Assembly: GCA_003225055.1 (NCBI GenBank) | Contig: QIAU01000168.1 | Coordinates: 1 to 39,320 of the forward strand | Source of the DNA: Acidobacteriota bacterium | GTDB taxonomy: Bacteria > Acidobacteriota > Terriglobia > Terriglobales > Acidobacteriaceae | Reading direction: 5' to 3' | DNA: 39,320 nt | Shown: positions 11,130-37,183 of the stretch, piece by piece | How positions within the stretch are numbered: the stretch's first letter is position 1 | Layout: each line of letters starts with the position of its first letter | The notes under the pieces: generated by a model | Told to the model about the DNA's origin: nothing | The model's input: only the letters and a program-made list of their open reading frames with translations | The model's database searches: none | Position numbers and translations under genes: made by a program

Positions 11130-14100
11130 TCACCAGTCTAGCCGGAGCGAGAATTGGATAATCCGCGGATCATTGGCCTGTTTGCTCAAATCCTGCAGCC
11201 CTGTAGTGCTGTCGGGATCGATATCGTTCGGGTGGTTAAAGGCGTTAAAGAAATCCGCCGTAAATCTGAGATTCGCCACTTCCTTGATTCTGAAGTTCTT
11301 GAATAGGGAGATGTCCGTATTCCATGCGCCTGGGCCGATCAAACTGGCCCTCTTACCCGGATTGAAAAAGTCCGAACTGCTTGCGCCGAAACAACTGCCG
11401 TCTGCCAAAGTCACGGCCAGCCGGCCAGTATCAAAGCTGCCGCTGCAGTCTGGTCCGAAGGGGTGAACCGTTCTTTGACTGCGATCCGCGGGAACCAAAG
11501 CCGAGAGGTTTCCTCCCGTCACGTTGGTTGCCCCGGTGGGATTGAAGTCTCCCTTAAACCACAAACGTTGGTGTCGGCCGAAGATATCCATCTCCGGTCG
11601 CTGGTCGGGGCTGAGAATGGGATTGCCGGCCTGGAATCGGCTGGCGCTAACGCTGCGCCAGAACCCGCCCCGCCAATCTCCAATGGTGGCGACCTGCCAA
11701 CCGCCGATCACCTGATTGAGAGCTCCAGAAGCATGGCCTGCGAATTTCTTCCCCCGGCCAAAAGGAAGAGCCACGACGGCGTTGTAACGGATGTGGTGGG
11801 GCGGGACCTCGGTGGAGTTGAGATAGACGAGGTGAAGCCGCTGGCTGTAAGTGAGGTTGGGCTCGCCAAGCAGGTCAATAATTTCTGGCGGTGCAGCTCC
11901 CAAGCGGACATCGTTTATACCGGAGTTGCCGCTGGTAAACCCTCCCGCGTCGGTCGTGGTCAAGGAATGAATATAGGTGTAAAACCACTGCAAAGCCACG
12001 CCTTTCGAAAATCTGCGTTCGACCTGGACTTGGGCCGAGTGGCTATTTGAATACCCGCTGCGATCCTTGGCCCTGAGGTTCCAGTTCGGGTTGACGCGGC
12101 GCACGTCAATGGGTCGAGGGTCTAAGCTGTTGGGTGGCGGCGCCAGGCCGGTGCGACTAGCATAGTTGAAGGCGGCCTCCGGGGTATTCAGCGCATAGTT
12201 CTGCTCCAGATCTCTTCCGTGAGTCCCAAGGTAGCTGACACGTAGAGCCGTCTGGTAAAACAATTCGCGCTCCAAGGTCACGTGCCACTGCTGAACACGG
12301 TCATCCTTCCAGTGGCGTCCATCCCAGACTTGTTCTGACTGTGCTGCCGGTGAGATTACTCCATTGCCGGAAATATCCACGGTCGCGTTGGGAAGAAAAT
12401 CACCAGGCCCCGGCGCGCTGACCGTCGTGAAGTTGTTGTCGGGAAAGTTCCTCTCATTAAGGGCGTTTCGGTAGAGCAGGTTCAGTGGTGGATTTGTCCG
12501 TGAGGCCTGCAACAATTGGGAAAGTGGCATGGTCCAGAAGTATTCTCCGTAGCTGCCGCGCAAAACTGTGTTAGGCGTGAGCTTGAAAGCGACCCCCAGG
12601 CGCGGACCAAAGTTATTGTTGTCCGCAGCGAACAGGCTATCGGGATAGCCTATCGCCCGCGCCGTATTGAAGGTCAGGCCGCGCGCTTCCCACGACGTCA
12701 ACACGGACGGAGGAACTCCAGGCAACGAGTGCATATCGTGGTTCCCTGGCGTGATCACTTCGAACTTGTTGGGATCGGATATGGAATTGATATCGGCGGT
12801 GGTCAGGCGATTTAATTTTTCGTGGTAGGGGGTCCATTTGTCCCAGCGTACTCCCAGATTCAACGTCAAGCGGGGCGAGACCTTCCAGCTGTCATTAAAA
12901 TAGAGTCCTATTTCCTTCTGTCGGAAATAGAAATAGCCCCGGTTGTATTGGTTGCGCAAAGTAGTGGGCAGACCCAAAAGCAAGTCCGCAAACCCGTCCC
13001 CCGTGAAATCCGAAAGCTTTCCGGTATCGTTTGGATCATGCGCTGACTGTCCCGTCCAGCCGCCGTTAAAGTCATGCGATCCTTGGGCCTGCTGTAGCTC
13101 GCGAACGTTATTCTGCTCCAGGCGCACTCTCCCACCAAACTTGATGGTGTGCTTGCCCTGGGTCCAGGTCGCGTTGTCGTCCAGGACCTCAGCCGTCAGG
13201 GCCTGATTCGAATGATTGTCCGCGTCCCAGCAAAAATAGCCATAGTATCCCAGGTTGGAGGCGCAAAAAGTAGGCCACCCGTTGACACCGAACGGGTTGG
13301 GCAAGCCGAGGTTGCCCGCCCAGTCGGTAAAGTCAGCCAGTGTTCCCTGATCGTGAAAAGATCGGTGCACGCCCACAAGAAGTTCGTTCAAGAAGGAATT
13401 CGAAATCAGCCGGTTATAGTTCACCGCCACATCATGAATGGTGGTGTCAGTCCTGGACGTTCCAGCACCGTCGGCCGCGGTTGCTGGATCGGCAAAAACG
13501 CCACCTTCGGTGGTGTGATTGCGCGCGCTCCGGGTATACCTGACTGAAAGGGAGTCTTTATCGCCGAAATGCTGATCTCCTTTAATCGTCAAGTTCCATA
13601 GTTTGGTTCTGTCGGGATAGAAGTGGACGAAATTAGGCCCCAGGTAAGGATTGTTGCCGGAACTTGGACGGGCCGTGAGCGCGGCCAACGTCTTGGCGGT
13701 AGCGCTAATCCTGTCAGAGGGAATAATGTTTCCCGGGAACTTCTGGCGGTTACCGTTGGCGTCTGTGGTCAGCGGGTCATAGATTGTAATCGGGTTACCC
13801 TCTGTATCCTGGGCATTGCTTAAATCTCCGTTCCACATGGCCTGGGTGGGCACGCGCTGGCCATTCTCATCATTCACATTGAGGCTCTGTTGCAGGGCCC
13901 GCAAGCCTTCGAAGGCCACGAACCAGAAGCTCTTGCGACGCCCGTCGTACAGGCTCGGAATGTAGACGGGACCGCCGGCCGATGCCCCGTATTCGTTCCG
14001 AATAAGCTGTCCGGGCTTGAAGACGCCGGTGACCGGATCCGGCAGGTCCTCACGCCGGCGAACGCGCAGGCCGCCGGAGTTGTTGCGATGGGTTTCAAAG

Positions 14101-20669: not shown

Positions 20670-22493
20670 GTGATCACGAGGATGTGTGCCGCATTAACCG
20701 TAAAGATCATGATTCGACTTGTGAGCCTGTTCTCGCTGACTGGGGTCTCACTGGCGGCAAATCCGAATAGCGGGCACCTCCCCGGCGCGTATTTCCGTCT
20801 GCTGGAAGCAGGTGCCGCCCAAGTCGAGGCCAGGCTCAATGCCGAGCCCTCGGCAACTTTGGAAACGCTGGAGGCACTTCCGGGATGGAGCCACTTTCCC
20901 TATTGCATTCTGGCATCCGCCGTCCTCTACAGCAAAAAGCACGCCACCAATCCTCGATATCACGATCCTAAAATGCTCGCCCTGACTCTCCGGATCGGTG
21001 ATTTTCTCGCCGCCGAAAGTGAAAAGGGCCGCTACGAGCCACGGCTCGACAGTGACTGGGACACATACATGTGGCTCGAAGCCTACCGCCTGCTGGGTCC
21101 TGAACTCGGCGAGGAACGCAAAGCCCGCTGGAAACGGGAGATCGAAAAGATTGTTGTTCCGTTGGTGCCCGACACCACCAAGCGCCTGGATTTTCCCTGG
21201 TATAACTCGCCCTACATCGGCACCTCGCCAAATCATTATGCCCAGTGGGCCTCACTGCTCCTGCTTGCCGGACATGTGTTTGGGAACAACGATTGGGTAA
21301 ACCTGGGCAAGCGGGTACTGCATCGCTTCGCCACTGAGGAGCAGACGCCCGACGGATATTGGGGAGAACACAGCCGGGCAGGTCCAACTACGGGCTACGA
21401 CTATGTGACCTCCACCCAAGTTGCGCTTTACTGGGAGTACACACACGATCCGGCAGCGCTCCAGGCATTGCGCCGCTCCACCGACTTTCACAAGTACTTT
21501 ACTTATCCCGACGGAACTCCGGTGGAGGTCATTAATGACCGCAACCGTTATTGGGGAGTTGACGCGTGGGGACATTTTGGGTTCTCCAATTTCCCAGACG
21601 GCCGCCGCTACGCGGAGTTTTTGACTGGTTTTTTTCGTGCCGACAATTTGACCCGCATGGACCCGCAGTGGGAGCACTGGGGCCTGACGCTGGACGCATT
21701 GGGCCGGCTGGCTCAGAGTGCGCTGTACTATCACGAAGGACGCACAGAGCCGATTCCTCAAGACCAGGAGCGCTATTCCTACCAGATGAACATTCCGGCG
21801 GGGATTCGCAAGACTGGGCCCTGGGTCGTGGCCCTTTCGGGCGTGATCAACACGCAGTCAGTCTTCAGCCAGTTCTACCTTGACCGGCAAAGCAGTATCA
21901 GCGTCTTTCACCAGAAATATGGCCTGATCATCTCCGGCGCCAATTCCAAGCGGCAGCCGGAGCTTGCGACGTTCGCAGAAAAGATCGAAGGGCAGCTTTA
22001 TCACCTTCCTCTCAGCAGCCGTCTGCAAATGAACGACAAGCAGGACCGGCTTTCGCTGTCCTACAACACGTTCTTTAGCGACCTGTACGTTCCTGAACCC
22101 TCTCGAAAGGAACTGCGGCTTCGTTTTGTGCTGACCGGCCGGGGGACGCCCGCGGAAGAGACGAAACTCAACTTACAGCTTTGCCTGAAAGCAGGTGAGA
22201 CGCTGGAAACCGGCGGCGGTAAGAAGATCCTGCTCGGGACTGAAGGAGTGGAGCTTTCGCCCGAGGACCTGGGCGGCGAAATCCGTCATCATGGCTGGAC
22301 GCTGAAGCTGGATCCCATGGCCCGGCTGGTGTGGCCGATTTATCCCTTCAATCCTTATATGAACAAGCCGGAAACCAAGCTGGACCATGCTGTGGGTCTG
22401 CTGTCGGTCCCATTGCAGGCGAAGAGAACCAAAGAGGACTGGTTCGTCCGTCCAGGCGAACAGGAAATTCTGTTCCTACTGACGAGCGATTGA
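20670..22493 (+). CDS. Secreted alpha/alpha-toroid protein, lyase/hydrolase-like, family uncertain
   Basis: 607 aa. A GTG start at 20670 is supported by GGGAG eight bases upstream. The signal peptide is MIRLVSLFSLTGVSLAANP, and an internal ATG at 20709 would also expose it. The N-terminal 330 residues are helix-rich with repeated Trp/Tyr/His motifs (GWSHFPYCILASAVLY, SPYIGTSPNHYAQWASLLLL, DGYWGEHSRAGPTTGYDY, YWGVDAWGHFGFSNFPDGRR). This fits an (alpha/alpha) toroid as in heparinase- or alginate-lyase-like proteins. Residues 360-600 look like a beta-sandwich. NHY and the Tyr/His-rich segments could form a lyase-type active site. I cannot place it in a named PL or GH family. It sits between the esterase and the GH42-like enzyme, so a glycan-cleaving role is likely. 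Confidence 0.65.
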   Translation: MITRMCAALTVKIMIRLVSLFSLTGVSLAANPNSGHLPGAYFRLLEAGAAQVEARLNAEPSATLETLEALPGWSHFPYCILASAVLYSKKHATNPRYHDPKMLALTLRIGDFLAAESEKGRYEPRLDSDWDTYMWLEAYRLLGPELGEERKARWKREIEKIVVPLVPDTTKRLDFPWYNSPYIGTSPNHYAQWASLLLLAGHVFGNNDWVNLGKRVLHRFATEEQTPDGYWGEHSRAGPTTGYDYVTSTQVALYWEYTHDPAALQALRRSTDFHKYFTYPDGTPVEVINDRNRYWGVDAWGHFGFSNFPDGRRYAEFLTGFFRADNLTRMDPQWEHWGLTLDALGRLAQSALYYHEGRTEPIPQDQERYSYQMNIPAGIRKTGPWVVALSGVINTQSVFSQFYLDRQSSISVFHQKYGLIISGANSKRQPELATFAEKIEGQLYHLPLSSRLQMNDKQDRLSLSYNTFFSDLYVPEPSRKELRLRFVLTGRGTPAEETKLNLQLCLKAGETLETGGGKKILLGTEGVELSPEDLGGEIRHHGWTLKLDPMARLVWPIYPFNPYMNKPETKLDHAVGLLSVPLQAKRTKEDWFVRPGEQEILFLLTSD

Positions 22494-25413: not shown

Positions 25414-26316
25414 ATGAAATCCATCGATCGCAGGGAATTCTTAGTAGCCGCTGGCACAGCCGCTGCCATGCCAGTCTTCGGGAACGCACTTACGCCGGCC
25501 GCAGGCGGTTCAACCATATACGCCCGGCTCTTCGTCGGATGCTGCGCCTACTCTTATAGCAAACACCTGACCGCGGGGACCATGGCAATGGAGGATTTTT
25601 TTCGGAAGGCGGTCGAGTTAGGGGTTCACGGTGTCGACGTCACAACCTATTGGCTGAAGTCAACCGATCCAGAATATCTGACCGCGTTGCGTCACTTGGC
25701 ATTTAAGAACGGAATGCCGTTCTCGGGCGCCGCGATTCGTACGGAAATGTGCCAGCCGGACGCGACCAAGCGGGCGGAAGAGGTTCGCAAGATCCGGGCC
25801 TGGATCGATGCTACAGAGGTACTGGGAGCGTCACATCTGCGCGTCTTCGGCGGCGAGCTTCCCAACGGCGCCACAGAAACACAGGGTGTCGACTGGGTGG
25901 TGGAGACGATGAAGCCAGCATGCGACTATGCCGCCAAACACGGGATCACTCTGGGAATCGAAGATCATGGCGGAATTACTGCCCACGCGTCTACAATTTT
26001 GGAGATCCTTCGGCGTGTGGACTCCCCTTACGCGGGCATTAATCTCGACATCTCCAATTTCCACGCCAAGTCCGATGAAGATCAATATTCCGAAATCGAG
26101 GCCTGCGTTCCTCTTGCGACACACGCGCACGTCCGCGAAGTATTTTCCGAAACCGAGCGACCCATTGACCTCGACCGAGTTTGGAAACTATTCGCAAGAG
26201 GCGGATACAAAGGTTACATGTCGGCAGAATACGAAGGCAAAGAAGATCCTATGACCGGCGTGCCGAAACTGATTGCGAAAATTAAGGCCCTTTGCAGCAA
26301 GTATTCGAGCGCCTAG
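25414..26316 (+). CDS. Sugar phosphate isomerase/epimerase-like TIM barrel, Tat-exported
   Basis: About 300 aa from the ATG at 25414, chosen because AGGA lies eight bases upstream and the protein then opens with a Tat signal (DRREFLVAAGTAAAMPVFG). An ATG at 25387 directly after the previous stop is the alternative. The barrel belongs to the xylose-isomerase-like/AP-endonuclease-2 family: FFRKAVELGVHGVDVTTYW, EVLGASHLRVFGGELP, GITLGIEDHGGITAH (metal Glu), GINLDISNFH (metal Asp), ATHAHVREVF and YMSAEYEGKEDP. Exported members often work with Gfo/Idh enzymes on oxidised sugars, which fits this cluster. The 3' end overlaps a small tandem duplication that supplies its stop codon. Confidence 0.88.
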   Translation: MKSIDRREFLVAAGTAAAMPVFGNALTPAAGGSTIYARLFVGCCAYSYSKHLTAGTMAMEDFFRKAVELGVHGVDVTTYWLKSTDPEYLTALRHLAFKNGMPFSGAAIRTEMCQPDATKRAEEVRKIRAWIDATEVLGASHLRVFGGELPNGATETQGVDWVVETMKPACDYAAKHGITLGIEDHGGITAHASTILEILRRVDSPYAGINLDISNFHAKSDEDQYSEIEACVPLATHAHVREVFSETERPIDLDRVWKLFARGGYKGYMSAEYEGKEDPMTGVPKLIAKIKALCSKYSSA

Positions 26317-26330
26317 TATTCGAGCGTCTA
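26301..26330 (+). repeat. 15-bp tandem duplication across a stop codon
   Basis: Two near-identical 15-mers, GTATTCGAGCGCCTA and GTATTCGAGCGTCTA, sit head to tail, differing at one base. The first provides the TAG of the isomerase gene. A slippage origin is likely. Confidence 0.85.
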
Positions 26331-26383
26331 GTTGCGCTGACTCCAGCGATCAGATAGATAGGGTCCGACAAAATGAGGGTGCC

Positions 26384-27274
26384 ATGGCTCGCATGTGCAT
26401 GTATCGGTTCTGTGGCTTGATCGCGCTGGCAGTGATTTTGGGCTCGACGACGATTGCCGTTGGCCAGACTGCTCACACGAAGAAAGTTTTCATGATTACC
26501 GACATGGAAGGTGTGGACGGGATTTTCAACTCCGAACTCCAGTGCAACCCGTTCCAGAGTCCGCGATTCGAGGAGTCCAGGAAGCTCCTGACTGGCGAAA
26601 TTAACGCTGCGGTAGACGGTTTGATGGAAGGGGGTGCAACGGAAGTCGTGGTCTGGGACGGGCACGATGCCAGCCGTACGCTCTCCACTTTGGATATCCA
26701 CCCTAAGGCACGGCTGCTCATGGGCAGCCCGGTCTCGTCAACGCTGGAGCTGAATTCCTCCTATAGCGCACTGGTCTTCATCGGGCAGCATGCCATGGCA
26801 GGCGCAGAAAAGGGTGTGCTCGCGCACTCCTACAGCTCCGATGGTGTCCAAAATATCTGGGTCAACAACAAAACGGTAGGAGAAATCGGCGCGCGCGTCA
26901 TGTTGGCCGGCACTTTCGGCATTCCGGTGGTGATGCTCTCCGGAGACGCCGCGGCATGCAAGGAGATACACGAGCTCGTTTCCCAAGCCGAGTGTGCGGA
27001 AGTGAAGTGGGGCGTCAGCCGGACGGCCACTTTCAGCCTTTCGCATCCGGCAGCGTGTTCGCTGATCCGAGAAAAGGCTCGCCGCGCCATGGAGCGCCTC
27101 GCCGAGTTCAAGCCTTATGTGCTGTCCGGGCCGGTGGAAGTGAAAGTCCAATTCACGACCAAAGCCACACCCGATATCCAACCACGCGCAGGCATTGAAC
27201 AGTTGGACGAGCGCACATGGGTTTTTCGTGGGAAGGACATTATTGAAGCGTGGCTGAAATACTCCAGTTTCTGA
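26384..27274 (+). CDS. M55-family D-aminopeptidase (DppA-like), secreted
   Basis: 296 aa from the ATG at 26384, preceded by GAGGG and opening into a signal peptide (MYRFCGLIALAVILGSTTIAVG, cleavage near GQTA). M55 peptidases are zinc enzymes that release N-terminal D-amino acids. The metal ligands known from DppA are all recognisable: FMITDMEGVDGI (Asp and Glu), VWDGHDASR (His), FIGQHAMAG (His) and NKTVGEIGARV (Glu). Classical DppA is cytoplasmic, whereas this one carries an export signal, so it would act on peptides in the periplasm or outside. It follows the isomerase by 67 bp and is convergent with the M28 gene. It implies a substrate with D-residues, such as cell-wall peptides. Confidence 0.88.
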   Translation: MARMCMYRFCGLIALAVILGSTTIAVGQTAHTKKVFMITDMEGVDGIFNSELQCNPFQSPRFEESRKLLTGEINAAVDGLMEGGATEVVVWDGHDASRTLSTLDIHPKARLLMGSPVSSTLELNSSYSALVFIGQHAMAGAEKGVLAHSYSSDGVQNIWVNNKTVGEIGARVMLAGTFGIPVVMLSGDAAACKEIHELVSQAECAEVKWGVSRTATFSLSHPAACSLIREKARRAMERLAEFKPYVLSGPVEVKVQFTTKATPDIQPRAGIEQLDERTWVFRGKDIIEAWLKYSSF

Positions 27275-27378
27275 CACAGAGAAGCCTGCAGCGCCGAGAA
27301 AGAGCGGCCTTCGAGGGCAGCGTAAGGGATTCGTGAGCTTCAGTCCCCGTGGCACGACTCCACCTTCGACTCGAAGCG

Positions 27379-29442
27379 TCATTTCTCGACAAAATCCACA
27401 TATCCCTTCTCGCGCAGAAAGCGGAAATATCCGACGAAATCGAAATCCGTCGGCCCCAGTTCCAAGCGGGTCAGGTGGATGACCTCGGCAAGGTTGCGAT
27501 GGCCGTCACACCAGTAGAGGGCAATGGTGGGGACTCCTTCCCATGCCCCTGAAGGGTAGCCCTCACGTTGGTCGGGCGGAATGTCGTCGAGCGGCAAGGT
27601 CCCATAGCGCTTGCGCCGAACCACAATTTTGGCCGCCTCCTTCAGTTGAGGGTCTGCGGCCGCGATCGGTTTCATAGGCGCCTTGAAGCCAAGCTCCAGA
27701 GCTCGGCGATCAATAGCGTGACGCACTCTGTTGGTTTGCTCCTCCCCGAATCGGCGAAGGCTCTCAACTAGCGGAGTCAGGTTTTTTCTTGCCTCCTCGC
27801 GTCGCGGTTCCGGGATCAGCCGAAGAACTGAGAGAACGGACTCGGTTTCGCGATCAACCGAATATGTGACGCGATCGATTGCGTCCTGAAGCCGGCGTGC
27901 GAGGCTGTCAGCTTCGTTCGTCGTGGGGACGCGGTCCAGAAACGACGCCGCCGTATCCAAAATCTGTTGGTAGCCCCGGGTCTGGCTCAGTTCCGCCAGC
28001 CACATCGCCTCGGACTCTCCCGCATTGGCCAGGTAGTAGAGAAAAGCCGCATTCACAGTTGCGATATCGCGCAGCGAGCGCGGATCCACCCGGTCTGGAG
28101 TGTCTTCACTGTTATGGTGAGTTTCTACTCCGCTGCCGCTGTAACCCCACACTGTCGGAACATTGACCGTGGGCTCGCTTAAATAGGTGTCGGTTCCACT
28201 CATGAATGTATGTTCATGCCAGAGCCGATGGACCTGGGGAAAGTACTCCTGAGCGACCCGCAAAATGAACGCATCCGTATAGGATTTCGCCACGTGTGGA
28301 TTCATGTAAAAGGTGTACTCGGTGCCTGCCAAATCATAGGAAGCGGCCGGCGTGTCCATGCACAGCGCCGCGACCGTGCGGCGCATTCGCTCAGGATGGG
28401 TCTGGATGTAATGCATCGATCCGTACAGTTCACCCATGATGAACAGTCGTATGCTTCGCTTCGGGCGCGGCAATTTGCCGGAGGCGATCAGCCGATTGAG
28501 CGTCGCCAGCGACTCGAGCATTGCCGCGACACCGGTAGCATTGTCCTCAGCACCTTGCTCGGAGGAGTGGCCGAGGGTCAGCACTTCTTCGGACCCGGTT
28601 CCGGGAATCACGCCTGTCACGTAGGGATAGACGCCGTTGTAGTAGCGAGTGTCGACTGTGGCCTTCACGCGCACCGCACCATGTTCTGCCAGGAGTTTCT
28701 GAACCAGGGCGGCTTGCCGGGGAGTGATCGAGAAGGAAAGCAGGGGGGTACTTGCCTTGGTGAACGCCCAACCATTGTCTCCCCAGGCATTGATCCACTG
28801 CCGGCCGTCCTCAAGCTTGGGATTCTCAGTGAAAGCATTGATGGCGCCCGTGGCCCCGGCCCTCACTAGTGCCCACTTAAAATCTGCGGGATTCCGGCTG
28901 GTGAGTACGAGCTTGCCCCGGAGCGGCATGTGCGCGATCTTGGCGGGGTCGGTCTCTTTCAGTTCCAATACCTCGGCCGTCACACCCTCAGGGGGCGTCG
29001 AACCGCTCCACATGCCGAGCGAAGTTGGGACTTTCTGAAAGTCGGCAAGGATAGCCTGCTCAGCGGGAACGGGGGGATCAACAATTTCCAGCCGAGCCGA
29101 CTTCGCGTCCCAGGCGAGTGGCATCGTCCAAAAACCGGCCTGAGTTGTGCCATCCGCCGGCGCCCCCAAAAGCTCGACATTCTTCAGGCCAATCTCTTCC
29201 ATGGTCTTTTTCACGAATTCCGCTGTCTCCTGGAACTTGGGGTAGGTGAACCAGCGGTCGGTCGAGTACACCTGCTGCATGAAATCCATGGCTTGGCGGG
29301 GCTCGATTTCGGCGCGGATGGCCTCGACCAGTTGCGCAAGGTCCACAGGCGCCGCGGCCAGCGCCCCTGCCCAAGCGAGCGGGAGAAAGACGATAACGAG
29401 TGCCTTGATGGGTCGGCGAATAAAGCGTCGCGCAGCGGTCAT
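27379..29442 (-). CDS. M28-family metallopeptidase, exported
   Basis: 687 aa with a signal peptide (KALVIVFLPLAWAGALAAAP, near residues 13-32). A PA-like insertion (about 140-265) precedes the zinc-peptidase core: VLTLGHSSEQGAEDNATGV (His292 and bridging Asp300), LFIMGELYGSMHY (Glu338), ALCMDTPAAS (Asp363) and VETHHNSEDTPDRVD (His442/443). The usual H-x-D reads H-S-S and the usual Glu-Glu pair is a single Glu, so activity may differ from classical aminopeptidases. A helical C-terminal extension ends in FRFLREKGYVDFVEK, possibly a small winged-helix-like fold. It is transcribed towards M55 and away from the racemase pseudogene, from an AT-rich divergent gap. It probably trims peptides outside the cytoplasm. 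Confidence 0.85.
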   Translation of the reverse strand: MTAARRFIRRPIKALVIVFLPLAWAGALAAAPVDLAQLVEAIRAEIEPRQAMDFMQQVYSTDRWFTYPKFQETAEFVKKTMEEIGLKNVELLGAPADGTTQAGFWTMPLAWDAKSARLEIVDPPVPAEQAILADFQKVPTSLGMWSGSTPPEGVTAEVLELKETDPAKIAHMPLRGKLVLTSRNPADFKWALVRAGATGAINAFTENPKLEDGRQWINAWGDNGWAFTKASTPLLSFSITPRQAALVQKLLAEHGAVRVKATVDTRYYNGVYPYVTGVIPGTGSEEVLTLGHSSEQGAEDNATGVAAMLESLATLNRLIASGKLPRPKRSIRLFIMGELYGSMHYIQTHPERMRRTVAALCMDTPAASYDLAGTEYTFYMNPHVAKSYTDAFILRVAQEYFPQVHRLWHEHTFMSGTDTYLSEPTVNVPTVWGYSGSGVETHHNSEDTPDRVDPRSLRDIATVNAAFLYYLANAGESEAMWLAELSQTRGYQQILDTAASFLDRVPTTNEADSLARRLQDAIDRVTYSVDRETESVLSVLRLIPEPRREEARKNLTPLVESLRRFGEEQTNRVRHAIDRRALELGFKAPMKPIAAADPQLKEAAKIVVRRKRYGTLPLDDIPPDQREGYPSGAWEGVPTIALYWCDGHRNLAEVIHLTRLELGPTDFDFVGYFRFLREKGYVDFVEK

Positions 29443-29636: not shown

Positions 29637-30713
29637 ATGCACCCTTCATCAATTCGCTTGCATTGGGTGCGGGTGCCGCTATGGGACCCTTTTCGCATCT
29701 CCAACGGCGAAGTTTCCGTCAAGGATGCGATCCTGGTCCAGATCGAGGCGGGAGGCACAACCGGCTGGGGCGAAGCTTCTCCCCTGGCGGGGTCTGCCTA
29801 TTCCGGAGAAACTCCGCAAAGTACCTGGGACTTTCTGCGCCAGCGCCTGGTTCCAGCTTTACTCGAGCAGCCCGAACTTGATCCGCTTCGTTGCTTTGAA
29901 CGTTTATCGAACTTTCCGGGAGAACCTTTTGCAAAAGCAGGACTGGAAGGGGCGGTGTGGGACCTCTATGCCCAGCAGAGCGGCGTGCCGTTGTGGTTCT
30001 TGCTGGGAGGCCATAAGCGGCCGCTCGCGTCAGGAGCGACAGTAGGACTCATGCCAGACCTTTCTGAACTCTTGAATCCGGTGCAACGGTTCCCCCGCCA
30101 GGGCGGGATGTGGACTTGGTGCGCGCCGTGCGCCGGCGCTTCGGCAACATTTCCCTCATGGTGGACGCAAACACGTCCTACCAGCTCGACGACACAGGCA
30201 TTTTCGAGGAACTGGACCGCTTCGACCTCATGATGATTGAACAACCTCTGGAGCGGGAGGCCTTGACCGAACATGCTGAGCTTCAAAGACGATTGCGCAC
30301 ATCCATTTGCCTCGACGAATCGGCTCACGATCTGGAGTCGGTCGGCTCCATGTATTCGGCAGGGCAGCGCGCGTATCCTCAACATCAAGGTGCAGCGCAT
30401 TGGGGGCGTCTGGCCGGCGCGCCAGGCGCACGACCTGGCGCGAGCTGCCGGCATTTCCTGCTGGCTCGGGACTATGCCGGAGTTGGGGATCGCCTCGGTG
30501 CAAGGCCTACATCTGGCGACACTTCCGAACTTCACGCTGCCCTCCGACGTTGTGGCTTCGGAGCGCTGGTTCGTCGATGACATAGTCGGTCCGCCAATTT
30601 CGATTACGGAGACTGGTTTCATTTGCCTTCCGGATGGCGCGGGCATGGGATATCGAGTAGCGGCCGACAAAGTCGTGCAATACCGCACTCGCTTCGAGGA
30701 ACTACGAGCATGA
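29637..30713 (+). pseudogene. Enolase-superfamily gene (OSBS / N-acylamino acid racemase / dipeptide epimerase-like), frameshifted
   Basis: The family is clear. The N-terminal capping domain (WVRVPLWDPFRISNGEVS, GGTTGWGEASPLAGSAYS, AKAGLEGAVWDLYAQQSGVP) is in the frame starting at 29637. It breaks near 30090. The barrel resumes in another frame (PGRDVDLVRAVRRRFG, SLMVDANTSYQLDD, MMIEQPLE, SICLDESAHDLE) and then shifts back near 30360 (SARILNIKVQRIGGVWPARQ, TMPELGIASVQGLHLATLPN). At the first break the text jumps from LLNPVQRF to PGRD, skipping the about 13 residues that hold the K-x-K motif with the catalytic lysine. A real deletion therefore seems to have occurred, not just a miscalled base. 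Asp, Glu, Asp and the second Lys remain. The stop overlaps the DHDPS-family start (ATGA). Confidence 0.85.
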
Positions 30714-31702
30714 GTTCACTTTCTGTCCTGGAGTGCCGTAAGAGTTTGATGCATGGTCTCATTCCCGCCGTGCCGGTGCCTTTCACTGCGTCCGGTCAGA
30801 TTGATGCGACCGGGCAGCAGCGATATGTTGCGTACATGGCCAGTCAGCCGGTGGCTGGAGTGGCTGTATGGGCTCACACCGGACGCGGTTTATTACTAAG
30901 TCGCGGACAACGGATTCAAGTCCTGCGCGCCTGGCGTGACGGTCTGGGATCGGGAAAGTTGCTCATCGCAGGAGTAGGTGGTTCTCTACAATATGCGCGT
31001 GATGGCGTGGCGTTTGTTAATTCCGCACTGAGCATGGCCGAAGACGCTCTGGAACACGGCGCACAGGCTTTGATGGCTTACGCACCGACGCCCTTTCGCC
31101 AATCGAACCAATGTGAAGATCTAACGCTTGATTATCATCGGCAGTTGGCGTCGTTGGGGGCTCCGCTCGTTCTCTTTTATTTGTATGAGGCCGCAGGCGG
31201 TATCTCCTATTCCCAAGGACTCCTGCGCGAGCTCCTTGCGCTGTCCGAAGTGGTCGGAATCAAGCTGGCCACGCTCGATAGCGTGATGACCTTCCAGGAC
31301 GTCGCCTCCCTGATTCGCCGAGACTTTCCGGAAAAGTTGCTGATCACCGGGGAAGACCGTTTTCTGGGCTACAGCTTGATGTGCGGAGCGGAGGCCGCTC
31401 TCATCGGCATGGGCGCTGCCTGCACTGGACTACAACTCGATCTGATGCAGGCTTTTTTCCAGGGACGATCCGCCGAGTTTCTTACGCTATCGCGCTTAGT
31501 GGACGAGCTGGGCGAAGTTCTTTTTGTTTCGCCGATGGAAGGCTACATCCGCCGCGTCCTGTGGGCACTGGTCCAGGAGGGCATCATTGGACGCGAATCC
31601 AGTTACGATCCCTGGGGACCAGAGCTGCGCGAAGATGAATTCCCTGAAATCAGCAGTGTTCTTCGCCGAGTAGCTCAGCTCGAACCGACAAAAGGAAATT
31701 GA
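30710..31702 (+). CDS. Dihydrodipicolinate synthase / N-acetylneuraminate lyase family aldolase
   Basis: 330 aa. The start at 30710 overlaps the preceding stop as ATGA and has GAGGAAC upstream, so the longer frame to 30623 is rejected. A class I aldolase TIM barrel: LIPAVPVPFTASGQIDATGQ at the N-terminus, VWAHTGRGLLLSRGQR in the position of the TGE motif, LVLFYLYEAAGG with the catalytic Tyr near 157-159, and VVGIKLATLD with the Schiff-base Lys185. The second family lysine and tyrosine are thus in place. DHDPS/NAL enzymes condense or split pyruvate-containing compounds, including sialic acid and keto-deoxy sugar acids. No signal peptide, so cytoplasmic. It lies 9 bp before the DHOD-like gene. 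A catabolic aldolase is more likely than lysine synthesis given the context. Confidence 0.87.
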   Translation: MSSLSVLECRKSLMHGLIPAVPVPFTASGQIDATGQQRYVAYMASQPVAGVAVWAHTGRGLLLSRGQRIQVLRAWRDGLGSGKLLIAGVGGSLQYARDGVAFVNSALSMAEDALEHGAQALMAYAPTPFRQSNQCEDLTLDYHRQLASLGAPLVLFYLYEAAGGISYSQGLLRELLALSEVVGIKLATLDSVMTFQDVASLIRRDFPEKLLITGEDRFLGYSLMCGAEAALIGMGAACTGLQLDLMQAFFQGRSAEFLTLSRLVDELGEVLFVSPMEGYIRRVLWALVQEGIIGRESSYDPWGPELREDEFPEISSVLRRVAQLEPTKGN

Positions 31703-31711
31703 GAAAGCCTT

Positions 31712-33043
31712 ATGTGGGAGTTGCTTCCTCCAAGAGTCCGCCTGGTTGGCGCTCCGTGCCTCAACGAACGCAATACGCGACAACTCGCGCAGGACTTCGA
31801 CAAGTTCCGTAATGGCCTCCCGCGGCCCCTCGAGGCTTATATCCTTGCAACCTACGGCGTTGACCTTGCCACCGAGTATGCAGGCTTGCCAGTCAAGAAC
31901 CCCTTTGGCAAGGCTTCTGGACAACTTTCGCTTGCTGCCCATCAGATCGAGCGCGATGCCGCTGCTGGGCTGGGCTTCGTCATTTTAAAGACCCTCGTCG
32001 CCCAGGACCCAAGCGGCCGGCAGAGCATGCGAGAGTGGGCCATTCCTGAGACACGCATGCTCGTCGAACCCATTCACGGACGCATGGGCGGGGAGGGATG
32101 GACCGTCACATGGAAAGGTCGGGGCTGGTTTGACAGCTTCGTCGCGTACCGGCACCTTTTCGGCCAAGCGCTGAACGTGGGGCAAGCGTCGAACATGCTG
32201 GTTGTGCCCTCCGTCAACTATCACCTGCCGGGTGGCAAAGAGACGTTCTGGAAGCAGGAGGAATACACTTTCACCACGCTCCGTTTGTTCGAGACCTGGA
32301 GCGAGGTCTGCGGCGACCGGCCGATGCCTCTGGAGAAGGATTTCAGCCCAACCTTGGCAGGCAATGAGCGCGCCACCCAGCAGGCGAAGATTGCGGAGTG
32401 GCTACAATCGGTTCCCGGTCTCATTCACCGCGCTGCGCCTGGCAAGGTTTGGGTTGGGCTGAAAGTTTTTAATACGCTTTTTGATGACCATTTCCAGGTT
32501 CAAATGCTCGATGGCGTACACGGCCCACCAGCGGGTGACGATCGTGCAGATTTCCTGGTTTATGCGAACCGCCTGTTCGATCCGGCTAAGGAATTTGAAG
32601 GCAAGCTGGGGGTCGCTTACGGTGGTCCTGATCTGAGTCACCGGAATCTGGCCGTGCTGGAGAAGTTCTTGTCCGTCCGGTCAGACGCCGACGCGCGCAC
32701 GCGACAACGAGACTTGGTAGACCACTTACCGATTAGCGCTAGCGGTGACATTCACTCGGGTCGCATAGCAGCCGAGTATCTTCTGCGCGGTGCCTCGAGC
32801 TTCCAGATGCACACTATCTTCCAATTGCCCAACGGGCAATTCTCCATGCCGACCGGGAGCAAGACCGAGAGGGCGTTACATCGCTTGCTCTTTCATCCCC
32901 AGGATGGCTTCATTCCCTGGCTGTTGGACCTGAAAGAAACCTTTGGGTGGAAACAGGAAATGAACATCCAGCAGATGGCCAAGTGGTGCCAGAATAACTG
33001 GAAGAACGTTGAAGAGTTGACTTCGGAGAAGCAGAACGCATAA
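31712..33043 (+). CDS. Dihydroorotate dehydrogenase-like FMN oxidoreductase
   Basis: 443 aa, cytoplasmic, no signal. The N-terminal barrel strand GLPVKNPFGKASGQLSLA (residues 58-75) and GFVILKTLVAQDPSG match the 'v.NP...ASG' and 'lKT' FMN-binding motifs of class 1 DHOD and the PreA half of dihydropyrimidine dehydrogenase. The later ISASGDIHSGRIAAEYLL and GASSFQMHTIFQLP correspond to the phosphate-binding 'GGI.s..da.eyl.aGAs..Qv.t' end. The catalytic loop is divergent (LVVPSVNYHLPG instead of a canonical S/C-P-N segment), so it is probably not the pyrimidine enzyme. It sits 9 bp after the aldolase and just before an MFS carrier, suggesting a catabolic flavin step on an unknown substrate. GAGAAAG precedes the ATG. 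Confidence 0.72.
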   Translation: MWELLPPRVRLVGAPCLNERNTRQLAQDFDKFRNGLPRPLEAYILATYGVDLATEYAGLPVKNPFGKASGQLSLAAHQIERDAAAGLGFVILKTLVAQDPSGRQSMREWAIPETRMLVEPIHGRMGGEGWTVTWKGRGWFDSFVAYRHLFGQALNVGQASNMLVVPSVNYHLPGGKETFWKQEEYTFTTLRLFETWSEVCGDRPMPLEKDFSPTLAGNERATQQAKIAEWLQSVPGLIHRAAPGKVWVGLKVFNTLFDDHFQVQMLDGVHGPPAGDDRADFLVYANRLFDPAKEFEGKLGVAYGGPDLSHRNLAVLEKFLSVRSDADARTRQRDLVDHLPISASGDIHSGRIAAEYLLRGASSFQMHTIFQLPNGQFSMPTGSKTERALHRLLFHPQDGFIPWLLDLKETFGWKQEMNIQQMAKWCQNNWKNVEELTSEKQNA

Positions 33044-33101
33044 TCACCCACAAACTGGGAAACCGGTTAGTTGGGAAACACTGATAAATTTTCATCTCTC
33101 C

Positions 33102-34373
33102 ATGCGCGTATTCTACGGCTGGTGGATTGTCCTCGCTGCGTTCCTGAATCTTTTCTTCTCGGTCGGTATCGTCTACTACGGCTTTCCGGTCTTCTATCCT
33201 TCGATGGTCGATTCGCTCGGCTTCACCCGGGCGCAATTGACCCAGGGCTTTCTGGTGGGATTCGTGGTGGCGGGTCTGCTATTCGGGCTTTTGGCAGGCG
33301 TCCTCATCGACCGATTGGGATCTCGTCAGGTCATCCGAATCGGCATTTGGTGTGTTGGCCTGCCGCTGATCGGGATGGGAAGCATGACGCGCCTGTGGCA
33401 ATACTACCTGCTCTGCATCATAGAAGTGGTCGGTTACGTGCTGACCGGACCTATTCCCAACCAGGTCTTGATCTCCAACTGGTTCCGGCTAAAGCGTGGC
33501 CGCGCCATGGGTGGCGCCTATCTGGGATTAGGCGTGGGCGGTGCAATTTCCCCGCTTCTGATCAACGGCCTAATTCAGAGCTTTGGTTGGCGGCACGCCT
33601 TTGAAATCATCGGAGCACTCATCCTGATCGTTCTCTTCCCAGTTTCCCAGTGGATCACGCGCTCCAGCCCGCGCGACTTGGAACTTCTTCCTGACGGGAT
33701 CTCCCCGGCTGCTTCCCCGATTGAACCCGCTTCGGGCGCGGGAGGGTACGTTGTTGGAGTGGAGGTAGCGCAAGCTGTGCGCAGCGCCAACTTTTGGTTG
33801 ATCGTGGCTGGCTGCACTTTGACCATCGGCGCCATCGGCGCCGTGACACAGCACCTGATCCTCTTTCTCAAGGGCCAGGGATATTCCTTGAGCGGCGCTT
33901 CCCGCGTATCGAGCGCGCTGCTGGTTTCAAGTCTTGCGGGCCGGGTGATCGTCGGATACTTTGCCGATCGCTACAGCATAAAAAATGTGATGGCATTGTT
34001 CTACCTGGTGCTGGCGCTGGCAATCCCATTGCTGTTCGCGGCCCAGCGGCCTGCCGCCGTCTGGGGGTTCGCGCTGTTCTATGGCTTTGCCATGGGCGCC
34101 GACTACATGTTGATTCCGCTGGTTACGGCGGATTGCTTTGGATTGTCGGCCCTGGGCAAACTCTTGTCTTTAATCATCATGGGATATTCCATGGGCCAAT
34201 GGTTTGCACCCTGGCTGGCAGGGAGAATCTTCGACACCCGCCACAGCTACGATCTTGCCTGGATCATTATGTCTGCCGTTGCGGCCGTGGGTGCTGCGCT
34301 GATCTATGCGATAGCACCGGATCGGCAGGCGGTCGCCCGCCAAAATTCAATACGCGCAGGCGAGTGCGCATGA
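33102..34373 (+). CDS. MFS transporter, oxalate/formate antiporter-like (OFA/MCT type)
   Basis: 423 aa with about 12 membrane helices in two halves joined by a polar loop near residues 185-215 (SSPRDLELLPDGISPAASP). The MFS motif A-like loop GLLAGVLIDRLGSRQVIRIG lies between helices 2 and 3, and its pair (GRVIVGYFADRYSIKNVM) in the second half. NQVLISNWFRLKRGRAMGG is typical of the OFA/monocarboxylate group, which carries organic acids. It comes 58 bp after the DHOD-like gene and 129 bp before GH109. The neighbours suggest import of a sugar acid or other carboxylate. The ribosome-binding site is weak. Confidence 0.88.
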   Translation: MRVFYGWWIVLAAFLNLFFSVGIVYYGFPVFYPSMVDSLGFTRAQLTQGFLVGFVVAGLLFGLLAGVLIDRLGSRQVIRIGIWCVGLPLIGMGSMTRLWQYYLLCIIEVVGYVLTGPIPNQVLISNWFRLKRGRAMGGAYLGLGVGGAISPLLINGLIQSFGWRHAFEIIGALILIVLFPVSQWITRSSPRDLELLPDGISPAASPIEPASGAGGYVVGVEVAQAVRSANFWLIVAGCTLTIGAIGAVTQHLILFLKGQGYSLSGASRVSSALLVSSLAGRVIVGYFADRYSIKNVMALFYLVLALAIPLLFAAQRPAAVWGFALFYGFAMGADYMLIPLVTADCFGLSALGKLLSLIIMGYSMGQWFAPWLAGRIFDTRHSYDLAWIIMSAVAAVGAALIYAIAPDRQAVARQNSIRAGECA

Positions 34374-34502: not shown

Positions 34503-35882
34503 ATGGCAACCGATAAAGTATGTAAAGACATCTCGCGACGGAGTTTCATGAAGCGTACTGCGGTGGGAGGTGCGGGACTCGTAATTGGGACTCAAATTCT
34601 GAGCCGGGACCTCGATGCCCGCACACCGAAAAGTGCGAACGCTACGATGATCGGCGTCCCGTTCGAAGCAAGAGAACGCGTGCGCCTGGGAATTATCGGC
34701 GTAGGCGGACGCGGAACCAGCCTGTTACAGGATCTGCTCGCCATTGAAAAGGTTGAGGTCAAGGCAATCTGCGATCTTGTGCCGGAAAAAGTCGCGCGCG
34801 CTCAAAAAGCGGTCACGAACGCAGGCCAGGCAGAGCCCGCCGGCTTCAGCAAGGGCGAATGGGATTTCAAGAACTTGACCCAGCTCGAACTCGATATGGT
34901 CTACATAGCCACCCCTTGGAACTGGCACGTCCCCATGGCCCTCAGCGCCATGAAGAATGGCAAGCACGCTGCCGTCGAAGTGCCCGCCTGTGCGACAGTC
35001 GAAGAGTGCTGGGACCTGGTCGATACCTCCGAAGCCACTCGCAAGCACTGCGTCCTTCTGGAAAATTGCTGTTATGGCTCCAGCGAGATGATGGTCTTGG
35101 GCATGGTGCGTGACGGACTCTTCGGTGAAATCACGCACGGAGAGGCGGCTTATCTCCATGACTTGCGCAGCATTTTAACGTCGAGTGAGGGAGAAGGCCT
35201 GTGGCGCCGATTTCCGCACATGAAGCACAATGGCAATCTGTATCCGACGCACGGATTAGGTCCCGTCGCTCATTACATGGACATCCATCGTGGCGACAGG
35301 TTCGACTACATGGTTTCGGTAAGTTCCGCTGAAGCCTCGCTGAGCGCCTATGTCAAAGCGAACTTCGCTGACGGGGACCCGAAGCGCAGCGAAAAATACA
35401 TTTGCGGTGACATGAATACCAGCATCATCAAAACCGTGAAAGGCCGTACGATTATTCTGCAGCATGATGTCGTCAACCCACGGCCTTACAGCCGACTGAA
35501 CTCGATCTCGGGCACGAAGGGCGCGTTCGCCGATTACCCGCCGCGTATCTTCGTCGATGGCCCAAAGCAAGAGGACTGGCAGAACATCGATGCGTTTCGC
35601 GACAAGTACGAACACGCACTCTGGAAAACGACCGGAGATCTGGCTCGCAAAATGGGTGGCCACGGCGGAATGGACTACATCATGAATTACCGGCTGATGG
35701 ATTGCCTGAAGAGGGGTCTGGTGCCCGATATCGATGTCTACGATGCTGCCGCATGGAGTGCGCCCACTCCGTTAAGCGAAACATCGGTGGCACAGAATGG
35801 CGCTCCCCAGAAATTTCCTGATTTCACACGCGGTAAGTGGAACGCCCGCTCAGATTCGACAGGCTTTGCACTTCAGACTTGA
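34503..35882 (+). CDS. GH109 alpha-N-acetylgalactosaminidase (Gfo/Idh-fold), Tat-exported
   Basis: 459 aa. A perfect AGGAGGT lies eight bases before the ATG. Tat signal: SRRSFMKRTAVGGAGLVIG (11-29). The NAD-binding motif RLGIIGVGGRGTSLL (61-75) is followed by signatures specific to GH109: IATPWNWHVPMAL, HAAVEVPACATVEECW, VLLENCCYGSSEMMVLGMVR, EAAYLHDLRSI, HNGNLYPTHGLGPVAHYMDI, GHGGMDYIMN and KFPDFTRGKW. GH109 enzymes hydrolyse alpha-GalNAc by an NAD-dependent oxidation-elimination-reduction route. The tightly bound cofactor fits Tat export of the folded enzyme. The match covers the whole length, so the family call is strong, although some members act on other sugars. It sits upstream of the HGSNAT-like gene. 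The 129-bp gap upstream may hold its own promoter. Confidence 0.92.
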   Translation: MATDKVCKDISRRSFMKRTAVGGAGLVIGTQILSRDLDARTPKSANATMIGVPFEARERVRLGIIGVGGRGTSLLQDLLAIEKVEVKAICDLVPEKVARAQKAVTNAGQAEPAGFSKGEWDFKNLTQLELDMVYIATPWNWHVPMALSAMKNGKHAAVEVPACATVEECWDLVDTSEATRKHCVLLENCCYGSSEMMVLGMVRDGLFGEITHGEAAYLHDLRSILTSSEGEGLWRRFPHMKHNGNLYPTHGLGPVAHYMDIHRGDRFDYMVSVSSAEASLSAYVKANFADGDPKRSEKYICGDMNTSIIKTVKGRTIILQHDVVNPRPYSRLNSISGTKGAFADYPPRIFVDGPKQEDWQNIDAFRDKYEHALWKTTGDLARKMGGHGGMDYIMNYRLMDCLKRGLVPDIDVYDAAAWSAPTPLSETSVAQNGAPQKFPDFTRGKWNARSDSTGFALQT

Positions 35883-35941
35883 GGGTGATTGAAGCCTGCT
35901 ATTATGCTCGCAGCGTTCCTTGCCTGCTGATAGGACCTATC

Positions 35942-37183
35942 ATGACCGAAGCCGTGCAGCTTGAGAGTCCGGTGAAAGAAGCGGCTATAACCGCACCTGA
36001 ACCCAAGCCCGAAACCAGCACCCGACTGGTATCACTCGATGGATTCCGCGGCCTGGTAATGACCCTGATGCTCGCCGAACGCATGCGTTTGCCCGACGTC
36101 GCGCGCGCGTTTCCGCACAGCGCGTTATGGGCTGTGATCGCCTTCCATACCGAACATGTCGAATGGCAAGGATGCTCGCTGCATGACCTGATCCAACCCG
36201 CCTTCTCGTTCTTAGTGGGCGCTGCACTCCCCTTTTCGATCGCGAGCCGAAAAAGCAAGGGGCAGACTTTCACTCAGATGCTTGGCCACGCGGCCTGGCG
36301 CGCGCTGCTGCTGATTGCTCTCGGAATCTTCCTTCGCTCAGTGGGATCACGGCAGACCTACTTTACATTTGAGGACACGCTGACGCAGATCGGATTGGGT
36401 TACGTCTTCCTGTTTCTGCTGGGATTCGCGCGTGTGCGAACGCAAGTGGTGGCGCTGGTGCTGATTTTGATTTGCTTTTGGGCAGCTTTCGCGCTTTATC
36501 CACCGCCAAGTCCGAATTTTGACTATGCCAGGGTCGGAGTTTCGCAAAACTGGAACCACAACTACACCGGATTTTTATCTCATTGGAACAAGAATTCGAA
36601 TCTTTCGTGGGCCTTCGATGTTTGGTTCTTGAATCTCTTTCCGCGAGAACAGCCTTTTGTCTTCAACGAGGGCGGTTGGTCCACCCTGAGTTTTATTCCC
36701 ACGCTTGGCACCATGATACTCGGGGCCCTGGCCGGAGAATGGCTCAAGGGAAAAGGATCCAAAGAGCAAAAGTTGCGAGGGCTCGTGATCGCGGGAGCAA
36801 CCTTGTTGCTGCTTGGACTCGTGTGTCAATGGGTCGGTATTTGCCCAATCGTCAAAAGGGTCTGGACATCGTCTTACACGCTGTACAGCGGGGGCTGGGT
36901 AGTGCTGATCCTGGCCGGTTTTTATGCGCTAATCGAATGGAAAGGATGGCGGCGATGGGCGTTCCCGCTGGTGGTAGTCGGAATGAACTCGATTGCCGTG
37001 TATGTGATGAGTTGGACCATGACGGGCTTCTTCGGCGATGCCTTAGACCGCCATATTGGAAAGCCGATGTCGGCGATGGCAGGACCGGTGTTTCAGCCCG
37101 TCGTGCACGGCTTTGCGGTGATGCTGAGTTTCTGGTTTATCCTGCTTTGGATGTACCGGCGGAAGATCTTCTTAAAGATCTGA
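35942..37183 (+). CDS. HGSNAT/NagX-like integral membrane acyltransferase (DUF5009 type)
   Basis: 413 aa from the ATG at 35942 (AGGA six bases upstream). A longer frame overlapping the GH109 stop is less likely. A short cytoplasmic N-terminus leads into RLVSLDGFRGLVMTLMLAER, the opening motif of the heparan-alpha-glucosaminide N-acetyltransferase family. About ten membrane helices follow, with conserved loops HVEWQGCSLHDLIQPAFSFL and GGWSTLSFIPTLGTMILGAL. Human HGSNAT acetylates terminal glucosamine across a membrane, and bacterial NagX proteins occur in amino-sugar loci. Here it lies 59 bp after GH109, so a role in N-acetylating or handling amino sugars at the inner membrane is reasonable. 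Activity is not proven for most bacterial members. Confidence 0.85.
   Translation: MTEAVQLESPVKEAAITAPEPKPETSTRLVSLDGFRGLVMTLMLAERMRLPDVARAFPHSALWAVIAFHTEHVEWQGCSLHDLIQPAFSFLVGAALPFSIASRKSKGQTFTQMLGHAAWRALLLIALGIFLRSVGSRQTYFTFEDTLTQIGLGYVFLFLLGFARVRTQVVALVLILICFWAAFALYPPPSPNFDYARVGVSQNWNHNYTGFLSHWNKNSNLSWAFDVWFLNLFPREQPFVFNEGGWSTLSFIPTLGTMILGALAGEWLKGKGSKEQKLRGLVIAGATLLLLGLVCQWVGICPIVKRVWTSSYTLYSGGWVVLILAGFYALIEWKGWRRWAFPLVVVGMNSIAVYVMSWTMTGFFGDALDRHIGKPMSAMAGPVFQPVVHGFAVMLSFWFILLWMYRRKIFLKI

Follow-up and report, generated by a model that had tools for sequence, protein, structure and literature searches.

What does a bacterium gain from an aldolase relative, a flavoenzyme-like protein and a carrier encoded one behind the other with hardly any space between them? 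The question is raised by a 39,320-nucleotide stretch of DNA from an Acidobacteriota bacterium (assembly GCA_003225055.1, contig QIAU01000168.1; here called the window). On its + strand, a relative of the dihydrodipicolinate synthase/N-acetylneuraminate lyase (DHDPS/NAL) superfamily of aldolases (30710..31702) is followed after 9 bases by a predicted flavoenzyme resembling dihydroorotate dehydrogenase (DHOD; 31712..33043) and, after a further 58 bases, by a major facilitator superfamily (MFS) carrier of monocarboxylate/OFA-like type (33102..34373). A sequence-only reading had described 30710-34373 as a compact module behind a racemase relic and knew of no described pathway with this set of genes. 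The spacing and the comparative data below bear out the compactness, and no description of the aldolase and DHOD-like gene set was found in the literature searched, which left most subscription journals outside its scope. We conclude that the aldolase and DHOD-like genes form a conserved module, a conclusion that is well supported, and that known folds in a new pairing probably serve a new pathway, one that probably ends in pyruvate and serine. Our proposal for its course, offered tentatively as a possibility rather than a likelihood, is that the module breaks down an N-acylated amino-sugar acid via a diketo acid to pyruvate and N-acylserine, and then to L-serine.

The case for a module begins with its conservation. 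Of the 35 genomes (the window's included) that proved to carry the DHOD-like gene, 33 have the aldolase gene next to it, and racemase-type and M20 peptidase genes recur nearby, which is what the neighbourhood analysis suggested by the sequence-only reading brought out. The pair is present in Acidobacteria, an Ignavibacteria/Bacteroidetes group, Isosphaeraceae, Symbiobacteriaceae, Paenibacillus and other Bacillota. Named genomes, when scanned, yielded 14 loci, from Acidobacteria, one Bacteroidetes bin, one Ignavibacteriae bin, Symbiobacteriaceae, Isosphaeraceae and seven Paenibacillus. Because the adjacency recurs across so many genomes, chance neighbours were rejected. That the two genes are ordinary PyrD and DapA relatives lying side by side by accident is therefore hardly credible: both superfamilies are very common, but the genome has its own PyrD elsewhere and accident does not account for 33 of 35 genomes. 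Pairwise distances of the two proteins also correlate (r 0.93 in 31 genomes, 0.91 in the 15 outside Paenibacillus), although this can be explained by shared descent alone. The distance and motif tables cover 31 of the 33 pairs, excluding the cut proteins of loci L021 (same genome as L002/G188) and L072.

The distribution is nonetheless uneven. The genus of P. oralis has the DHOD-like gene in 17 of 40 genomes and its phylum in 8 of 299; the figures are 3 of 294 for the phylum of the Isosphaeraceae bin and 2 of 247 for that of the Ignavibacteriae bin, tallies that count the centre genomes too. Within the window's phylum, the DHOD-like gene and the aldolase gene were found in the same 2 of 396 genomes, counting for the aldolase only matches at E <= 1e-40 (five candidates scored per listed genome) and excluding six of eight DHOD-like matches as short and weak (E 1.9e-4 to 4.4e-4). 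By eye, two of these belong elsewhere in the DHOD family (L004/L005) and three to another barrel family (L006-L008); all six, L003 included, were taken to be other proteins. The unit is patchy: the only other genome sampled from the window's genus has no DHOD-like gene. A tblastn search of a plasmid collection with the DHOD-like protein gave no match.

The DHOD-like protein is related to the known enzymes by fold and departs from them at the active site. It scored 25.4 bits against PF01180, just below the cut-off of 27, and its closest NCBIfam model, PreA, gave 28.5 bits against a cut-off of 335. Profile comparison with the genome's own PyrD and two DHOD-family proteins gave 97.3% (E 2.7e-11); with the own PyrD alone, a local hhalign profile comparison gave E 0.047 and a probability of 1.1%. 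The structure model (pLDDT 85.3) matched dihydropyrimidine and dihydroorotate dehydrogenases in Foldseek (2.5e-13) and has the TIM-barrel fold of these enzymes (VIA-align Z 27.8 with dihydropyrimidine dehydrogenase (DPD), 310 residues, 3.4 A, 18% identity). The altered catalytic loop noted earlier is real: where the own PyrD reads ELNVSCPNT, the DHOD-like protein reads LEKDFSPTLAG (EKDFSPTLAG at 32333-32362), and the N-x-S-C/S-P-N-T motif gives way to an EKDFSPTLAG-type sequence in all 31 members. D210, F211 and S212 are found in 31 of 31 and P213 in 28. Most other landmarks persist, with PFGK, K93, K251, N286 and most of GGPDLS kept in 31 of 31 (five rows, L055-L059, read GGYDLS); K93, K251 and a phosphate-loop-like GD/GN motif suggest binding of FMN. 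An ordinary PyrD with NVSCPNT is encoded elsewhere in the genome (C15:7170-8012, 248 bits). With this separate PyrD, a PreA score far under cut-off and an altered motif, we rejected identification as genuine PyrD or PreA, and the clustering with either that would have spoken against the sequence-only reading was not seen in these comparisons. The likeness to PyrD and PreA/DPYD thus extends to fold and most landmark residues, whereas the catalytic loop, the Pfam score and the gene company, which is always different, set the protein apart.

The aldolase relative shows a similar mixture. Its start was taken as ATG 30710, whose ATGA shares bases with the stop codon of the broken racemase frame, rather than as TTG 30623, because of that overlap and because its relatives start at the position matching the ATG and not at that of the longer frame; the gene stops at 31702. 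Scanned as the longer TTG frame, the protein matched PF00701 with 61.2 bits (cut-off 22.1) and widely missed the NCBIfam equivalog models for N-acetylneuraminate lyase (58.6 against 281 bits) and DapA (39.7 against 206.15). Its structure model (pLDDT 90.9) matched NAL and DHDPS about equally (Z 34.6 to 33.1), the best match being sialic acid aldolase at Z 34.6, and NAL was also the nearest sequence match. A catalytic tyrosine and a G-S/T-T-G-E motif are defining features of the superfamily. The Schiff-base lysine (Lys185, 31262-31264) is kept in 31 of 31 members, but phenylalanine (Phe156, 31175-31177) replaces the catalytic tyrosine in all 31, where the aligned lyases of the PDB have tyrosine, and HTGR (30875-30886) replaces S/T-T-G-E in all 31. 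The protein therefore shares fold (Z about 34) and lysine with the NanA, DapA and KDG aldolases and differs from them in both defining features, besides missing the NAL and DapA models. Loss of the tyrosine fits an altered reaction.

These residues bear on the order of reactions. Were the aldolase to act first, an ordinary retro-aldol cleavage would give pyruvate and N-acylserinal, the aldehyde being oxidised by the DHOD-like protein or by an unlinked enzyme; the order would differ but the logic would be the same. The class I aldolase fold and Schiff-base lysine are as this requires, and just such chemistry on an N-acetylamino sugar acid is performed by NAL, to which the protein is closest in sequence. 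However, the tyrosine is phenylalanine in 31 of 31 members, and we know of no precedent for a DHOD-family aldehyde oxidase. A search for an aldehyde dehydrogenase motif (a sequence pattern rather than a profile, with upstream loci L093-L107 outside it) found none in open reading frames (ORFs) longer than 300 amino acids among 842 neighbour ORFs, which leaves only the flavoenzyme or an unlinked enzyme for the task. Plain retro-aldol cleavage leaves an aldehyde to oxidise; oxidation first, with hydrolytic cleavage after it, would yield the acid directly. Cleavage first is possible but doubtful.

The company that the pair keeps gives the best indication of its product. The order is racemase-aldolase-DHOD in L009 and L010, and nitrilase-type hydrolase-binding protein-permeases-racemase-aldolase-DHOD in L012 and L062 and likewise in L011, where one permease frame was called. 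It is aldolase-DHOD-racemase-M20 in L055, L056, L057 and L059, racemase-regulator-aldolase-DHOD in L054 and aldolase-DHOD-another enolase-superfamily enzyme in L013. A racemase-type gene thus adjoins the pair in L009-L012, L062, L054-L057 and L059. The Paenibacillus operons run from an SDR-type protein through a second DHDPS-like protein, L-serine ammonia-lyase beta and alpha (in some), a heparinase II/III, a binding protein, permeases, a Gfo/Idh protein, a TIM isomerase-type protein, a regulator and an M20 protein (in some) to DHOD and aldolase. The binding proteins of L016 and L012 have sugar binders as best PDB matches, indicating sugar-type ABC importers; the TIM protein of L014 best matches AsbF, and L053, a locus from outside Paenibacillus, has close to its pair a protein whose C-terminal domain is of heparinase II/III type. 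The second DHDPS-like protein is very divergent, with no Pfam match and NAL at only E 1.9e-4; encoded at L095 8241-9311, with counterparts in L093, L094, L096, L097 and L100-L106, it also reads FYL-x-x-A-x-G-G.

M20 genes adjoin the pair in seven Paenibacillus loci, a cut-off eighth (L107) and L055, L056, L057 and L059. Scores of 390.9 and 350.3 bits exceed the cut-off of the amidohydrolase model (153.75), and the best PDB matches of the L069 protein are YxeP and amino-acid-conjugate hydrolases. The ammonia-lyase subunits likewise pass curated cut-offs (beta 251.7 against 161.2, alpha 386.2 against 243.2). Of the 7 Paenibacillus operons that carry M20, 6 contain both subunits, as against 0 of the 9 that lack M20. 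This count is based on 16 of the 17 Paenibacillus genomes with the DHOD-like gene (G432, with split contigs, was excluded) and on matches covering at least half or at least four tenths of the query, depending on the search. A random draw would give this split about once in 1100 by our own arithmetic, which is no proper probability, the loci being related and four of the nine views (L014, L018, L020 and L022) stopping at the second DHDPS-like gene. Since M20 and serine ammonia-lyase go together, L-serine is most simply taken to be what M20 releases, and the pair hence to make N-acylserine; from this company, we hold N-acylserine to be the product with moderate confidence. A scheme leading from a sugar acid to an N-acyl amino acid and on through racemase and M20 had been set down in general terms, without naming serine, before the ammonia-lyase was seen.

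The same neighbourhoods can be read in the direction of synthesis. DHDPS and M20 enzymes serve lysine and diaminopimelate (DAP) synthesis, and an anabolic or recycling role, for an amino acid or the cell wall, would have the DHDPS-like protein condense, the flavoenzyme reduce a ring, and racemase and M20 act as in DAP synthesis. By eye, the pair in L055, L056, L057 and L059 adjoins genes reading as glmM, acpS and alr, a cell-wall neighbourhood; the sets in L055, L057 and L059 adjoin these genes in a manner that could favour such a role, but that of L056 faces away from them. Moreover, the importer and serine ammonia-lyase of Paenibacillus point to breakdown, and the loci read show no recurrent acyl- or aminotransferase gene in company with the pair, except for an aminotransferase-like gene after it in L011, L012 and L062 and a GNAT gene in L010. 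We regard an anabolic role as unlikely.

The window's own racemase (29637..30713, +), an enolase-superfamily gene of o-succinylbenzoate synthase (OSBS)/N-acylamino acid racemase type, was delineated by tblastn with the intact L009 and L010 proteins and matches Pfam MR_MLE_N and MR_MLE_C on its two main pieces. The alignment with the L010 protein runs in frames +3/+2/+3, the frame shifting near 30104 and back near 30352, and near 30104 nine codons are absent, among them those for the K-x-K pair, leaving no open frame with the K-x-K of N-acylamino acid racemases and OSBS. As far as its sequence can tell, this copy is dead, as the description of it as a relic implied; a mere sequencing error is an unlikely cause, with nine codons missing besides the frame shift. 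An intact racemase/OSBS-type relative elsewhere in the genome (C251:7590-8681, 39% identity to L009) might replace it. At that site (L092 7560-9559), the intact gene adjoins a frame that reads by eye as a GNAT acetyltransferase, as in the N-succinylamino acid racemase (NSAR) pathway. The best PDB matches of the L009 enzyme are OSBS and N-acylamino acid racemase alike, at 273 bits. Some 4 kb from the pair in L054 (2206-4691), a second enolase-superfamily enzyme and an M20 peptidase face each other.

Enolase-superfamily epimerases also work with DHDPS-family deaminases in hydroxyproline(-betaine) catabolism, a combination that lends some credit to a route in which racemase or epimerase, flavin dehydrogenase and a DHDPS-family deaminase or dehydratase would convert an imino acid, N-acylated or cyclic. 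The cis-3-hydroxyproline dehydratase model indeed gives 95.1 bits to L009 (cut-off 500). Such a route fits poorly with sugar-type importers, heparinase and serine ammonia-lyase, and we think it quite improbable.

The proposed breakdown to N-acylserine would proceed as follows. After uptake by a carrier (MFS here, a sugar-type ABC importer elsewhere), the DHOD-like flavoenzyme would oxidise C4 of a 2-keto-3-deoxy-4-hydroxy-5-(N-acylamino) acid to a 2,4-diketo acid. Dihydroorotate dehydrogenases take a proton from C5 and a hydride from C6 of dihydroorotate; transposed, the reaction would remove a proton from C3 (alpha to the 2-keto group), pass a hydride from C4 to FMN and convert the enol to the ketone. 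The DHDPS-like enzyme would then hold C2 on its kept lysine while hydrolytic cleavage between C3 and C4 released pyruvate and N-acylserine, and the ketone at C4 could make the usual tyrosine dispensable. A racemase-type enzyme and then an M20 aminoacylase would yield L-serine, from which, in some Paenibacillus, L-serine ammonia-lyase would form a second pyruvate. A 2-keto-3-deoxy-4-hydroxy-5-acylamino-6-hydroxy acid cut at C3-C4 would give pyruvate and the skeleton of N-acylserine, and from the structures, such an acid would derive from a 2-acylamino-uronic acid via lyase action and C1 reduction. The diketo chemistry, the use of FMN and the identity of the sugar are hypothetical. In its fully specified form, with a DHOD-family 2-keto-3-deoxy-sugar-acid 4-dehydrogenase and a DHDPS-family 2,4-diketo acid hydrolase acting on N-acylated aminouronic acids (e.g., of heparin-like or bacterial wall glycans) on the way to L-serine, the proposal is a speculative one that we rate as rather doubtful.

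Known systems offer partial parallels. In the NSAR pathway, an N-succinylamino acid racemase works with an M20 desuccinylase and a GNAT enzyme; the pair's relatives similarly carry a racemase-type enzyme and some an M20, and in L010, a GNAT gene directly follows the pair. However, that pathway starts from D-amino acids and is not known to include an aldolase or a DHOD-like protein. A second parallel involves FucG and LRA6, which are FAH-type enzymes. Non-phosphorylating route 3 for L-fucose and L-rhamnose consists of 4-dehydrogenation of a 2-keto-3-deoxy sugar acid followed by hydrolysis to pyruvate and a hydroxy acid, without an aldehyde (PMC11199699; fucose and rhamnose are also the subject of PMC5080750), and the two-step logic of FucF with FucG and of LRA5 with LRA6 is the one proposed here for the pair by analogy (PMC11199699). 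Route 3 uses an NAD-dependent SDR with FucG/LRA6, whereas the pair comprises a DHOD-family flavoprotein and a DHDPS-family enzyme with a proposed nitrogen-bearing substrate. Beside the pair (loci inspected by eye, part of the neighbours scanned), no SDR 4-dehydrogenase or FucG/LRA6-type hydrolase was recognised except for the SDR-type epimerase family protein of Paenibacillus.

Several observations weigh against the proposed breakdown to N-acylserine. The position of the catalytic base in the DHOD-like protein is ambiguous, since an ungapped alignment places Phe211 on the cysteine of PyrD and a shift of one residue places Ser212 there, and we know of no case of hydrolytic C-C cleavage in the DHDPS fold. 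No gene for an electron acceptor was recognised. The racemase-type enzymes of L009 and L011 exceed the cut-off for o-succinylbenzoate synthase (277.0 and 251.9 against 200.65), so racemase activity is deduced partly from gene company. In L060 and L061, which belong to the same phylum as the Isosphaeraceae bin, the flavoprotein stands without a member of the aldolase subfamily (the genomes give only weak matches, at 2.0e-21 and 5.5e-14); the match at 2e-21, in G504, lies on the contig of the DHOD-like gene, about 26 kb off. The serine ammonia-lyase was seen in one genus only, Paenibacillus, among related loci, and L066/L101 carries M20 without it. Finally, Paenibacillus loci with M20 lack the racemase, and those without M20 lack both at the locus.

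The carrier is the least conserved member of the module. It matched PF07690 with 136.4 bits, the SfMCT lactate carrier model with 139.6 (cut-off 320) and the OFA model with 59.5 (cut-off 374.85), so that of its earlier description as OFA-like, the likeness stands although neither cut-off is reached; by these scores, it is OFA-like and not a certified OFA member. A homologue with 59% identity lies near the pair in L010, in two overlapping frames (12133-13315) that represent a decaying gene or a sequencing error; the sequences of L009 and L021 end too early to show one.

The sequence-only reading had also supposed that the module processes a keto acid or acylamino acid released by the window's exported enzymes. 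The acylamino theme agrees with the intact racemase-type and M20 neighbours elsewhere, but release by those enzymes finds no support, since in the other genomes read their genes do not adjoin the pair and the input is often a sugar-type ABC importer. The window genes that recur in the compared loci are the racemase, aldolase, DHOD-like and MFS genes, with weak Gfo/Idh matches. Next on the strand are a GH109-like Gfo/Idh gene with a Tat-type signal (34503..35882, +; PF21252 178.2 bits, TAT signal model) and a NagX-like transmembrane N-acetyltransferase gene (35837..37183, +; NF046061 130.7 bits, cut-off 480), whose frame is given from the listed GTG and whose true start probably lies further in; both may at most be candidate members of the module. 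More widely, 2250-37183 is dense in amino-sugar and glycan genes (sulfatase-TPR, GH20, ApbE, three Gfo/Idh of which one is GH109-like, GH42-like and NagX-like). At 26273-29442, an M28 peptidase is faced by a DppA-like M55 D-aminopeptidase, whose listed frame has a long N-terminal extension, and a 607-residue frame at 20670-22490 has zero Pfam matches.

The superfamily names dihydroorotate dehydrogenase and dihydrodipicolinate synthase would hide the pair from view. If the proposal is correct, bacteria would have a way of turning N-acylated amino-sugar acids into an amino acid while keeping the acyl group until after C-C cleavage. Each of two textbook folds would then acquire a new reaction, and genes in Paenibacillus, Acidobacteria and others would acquire a function.

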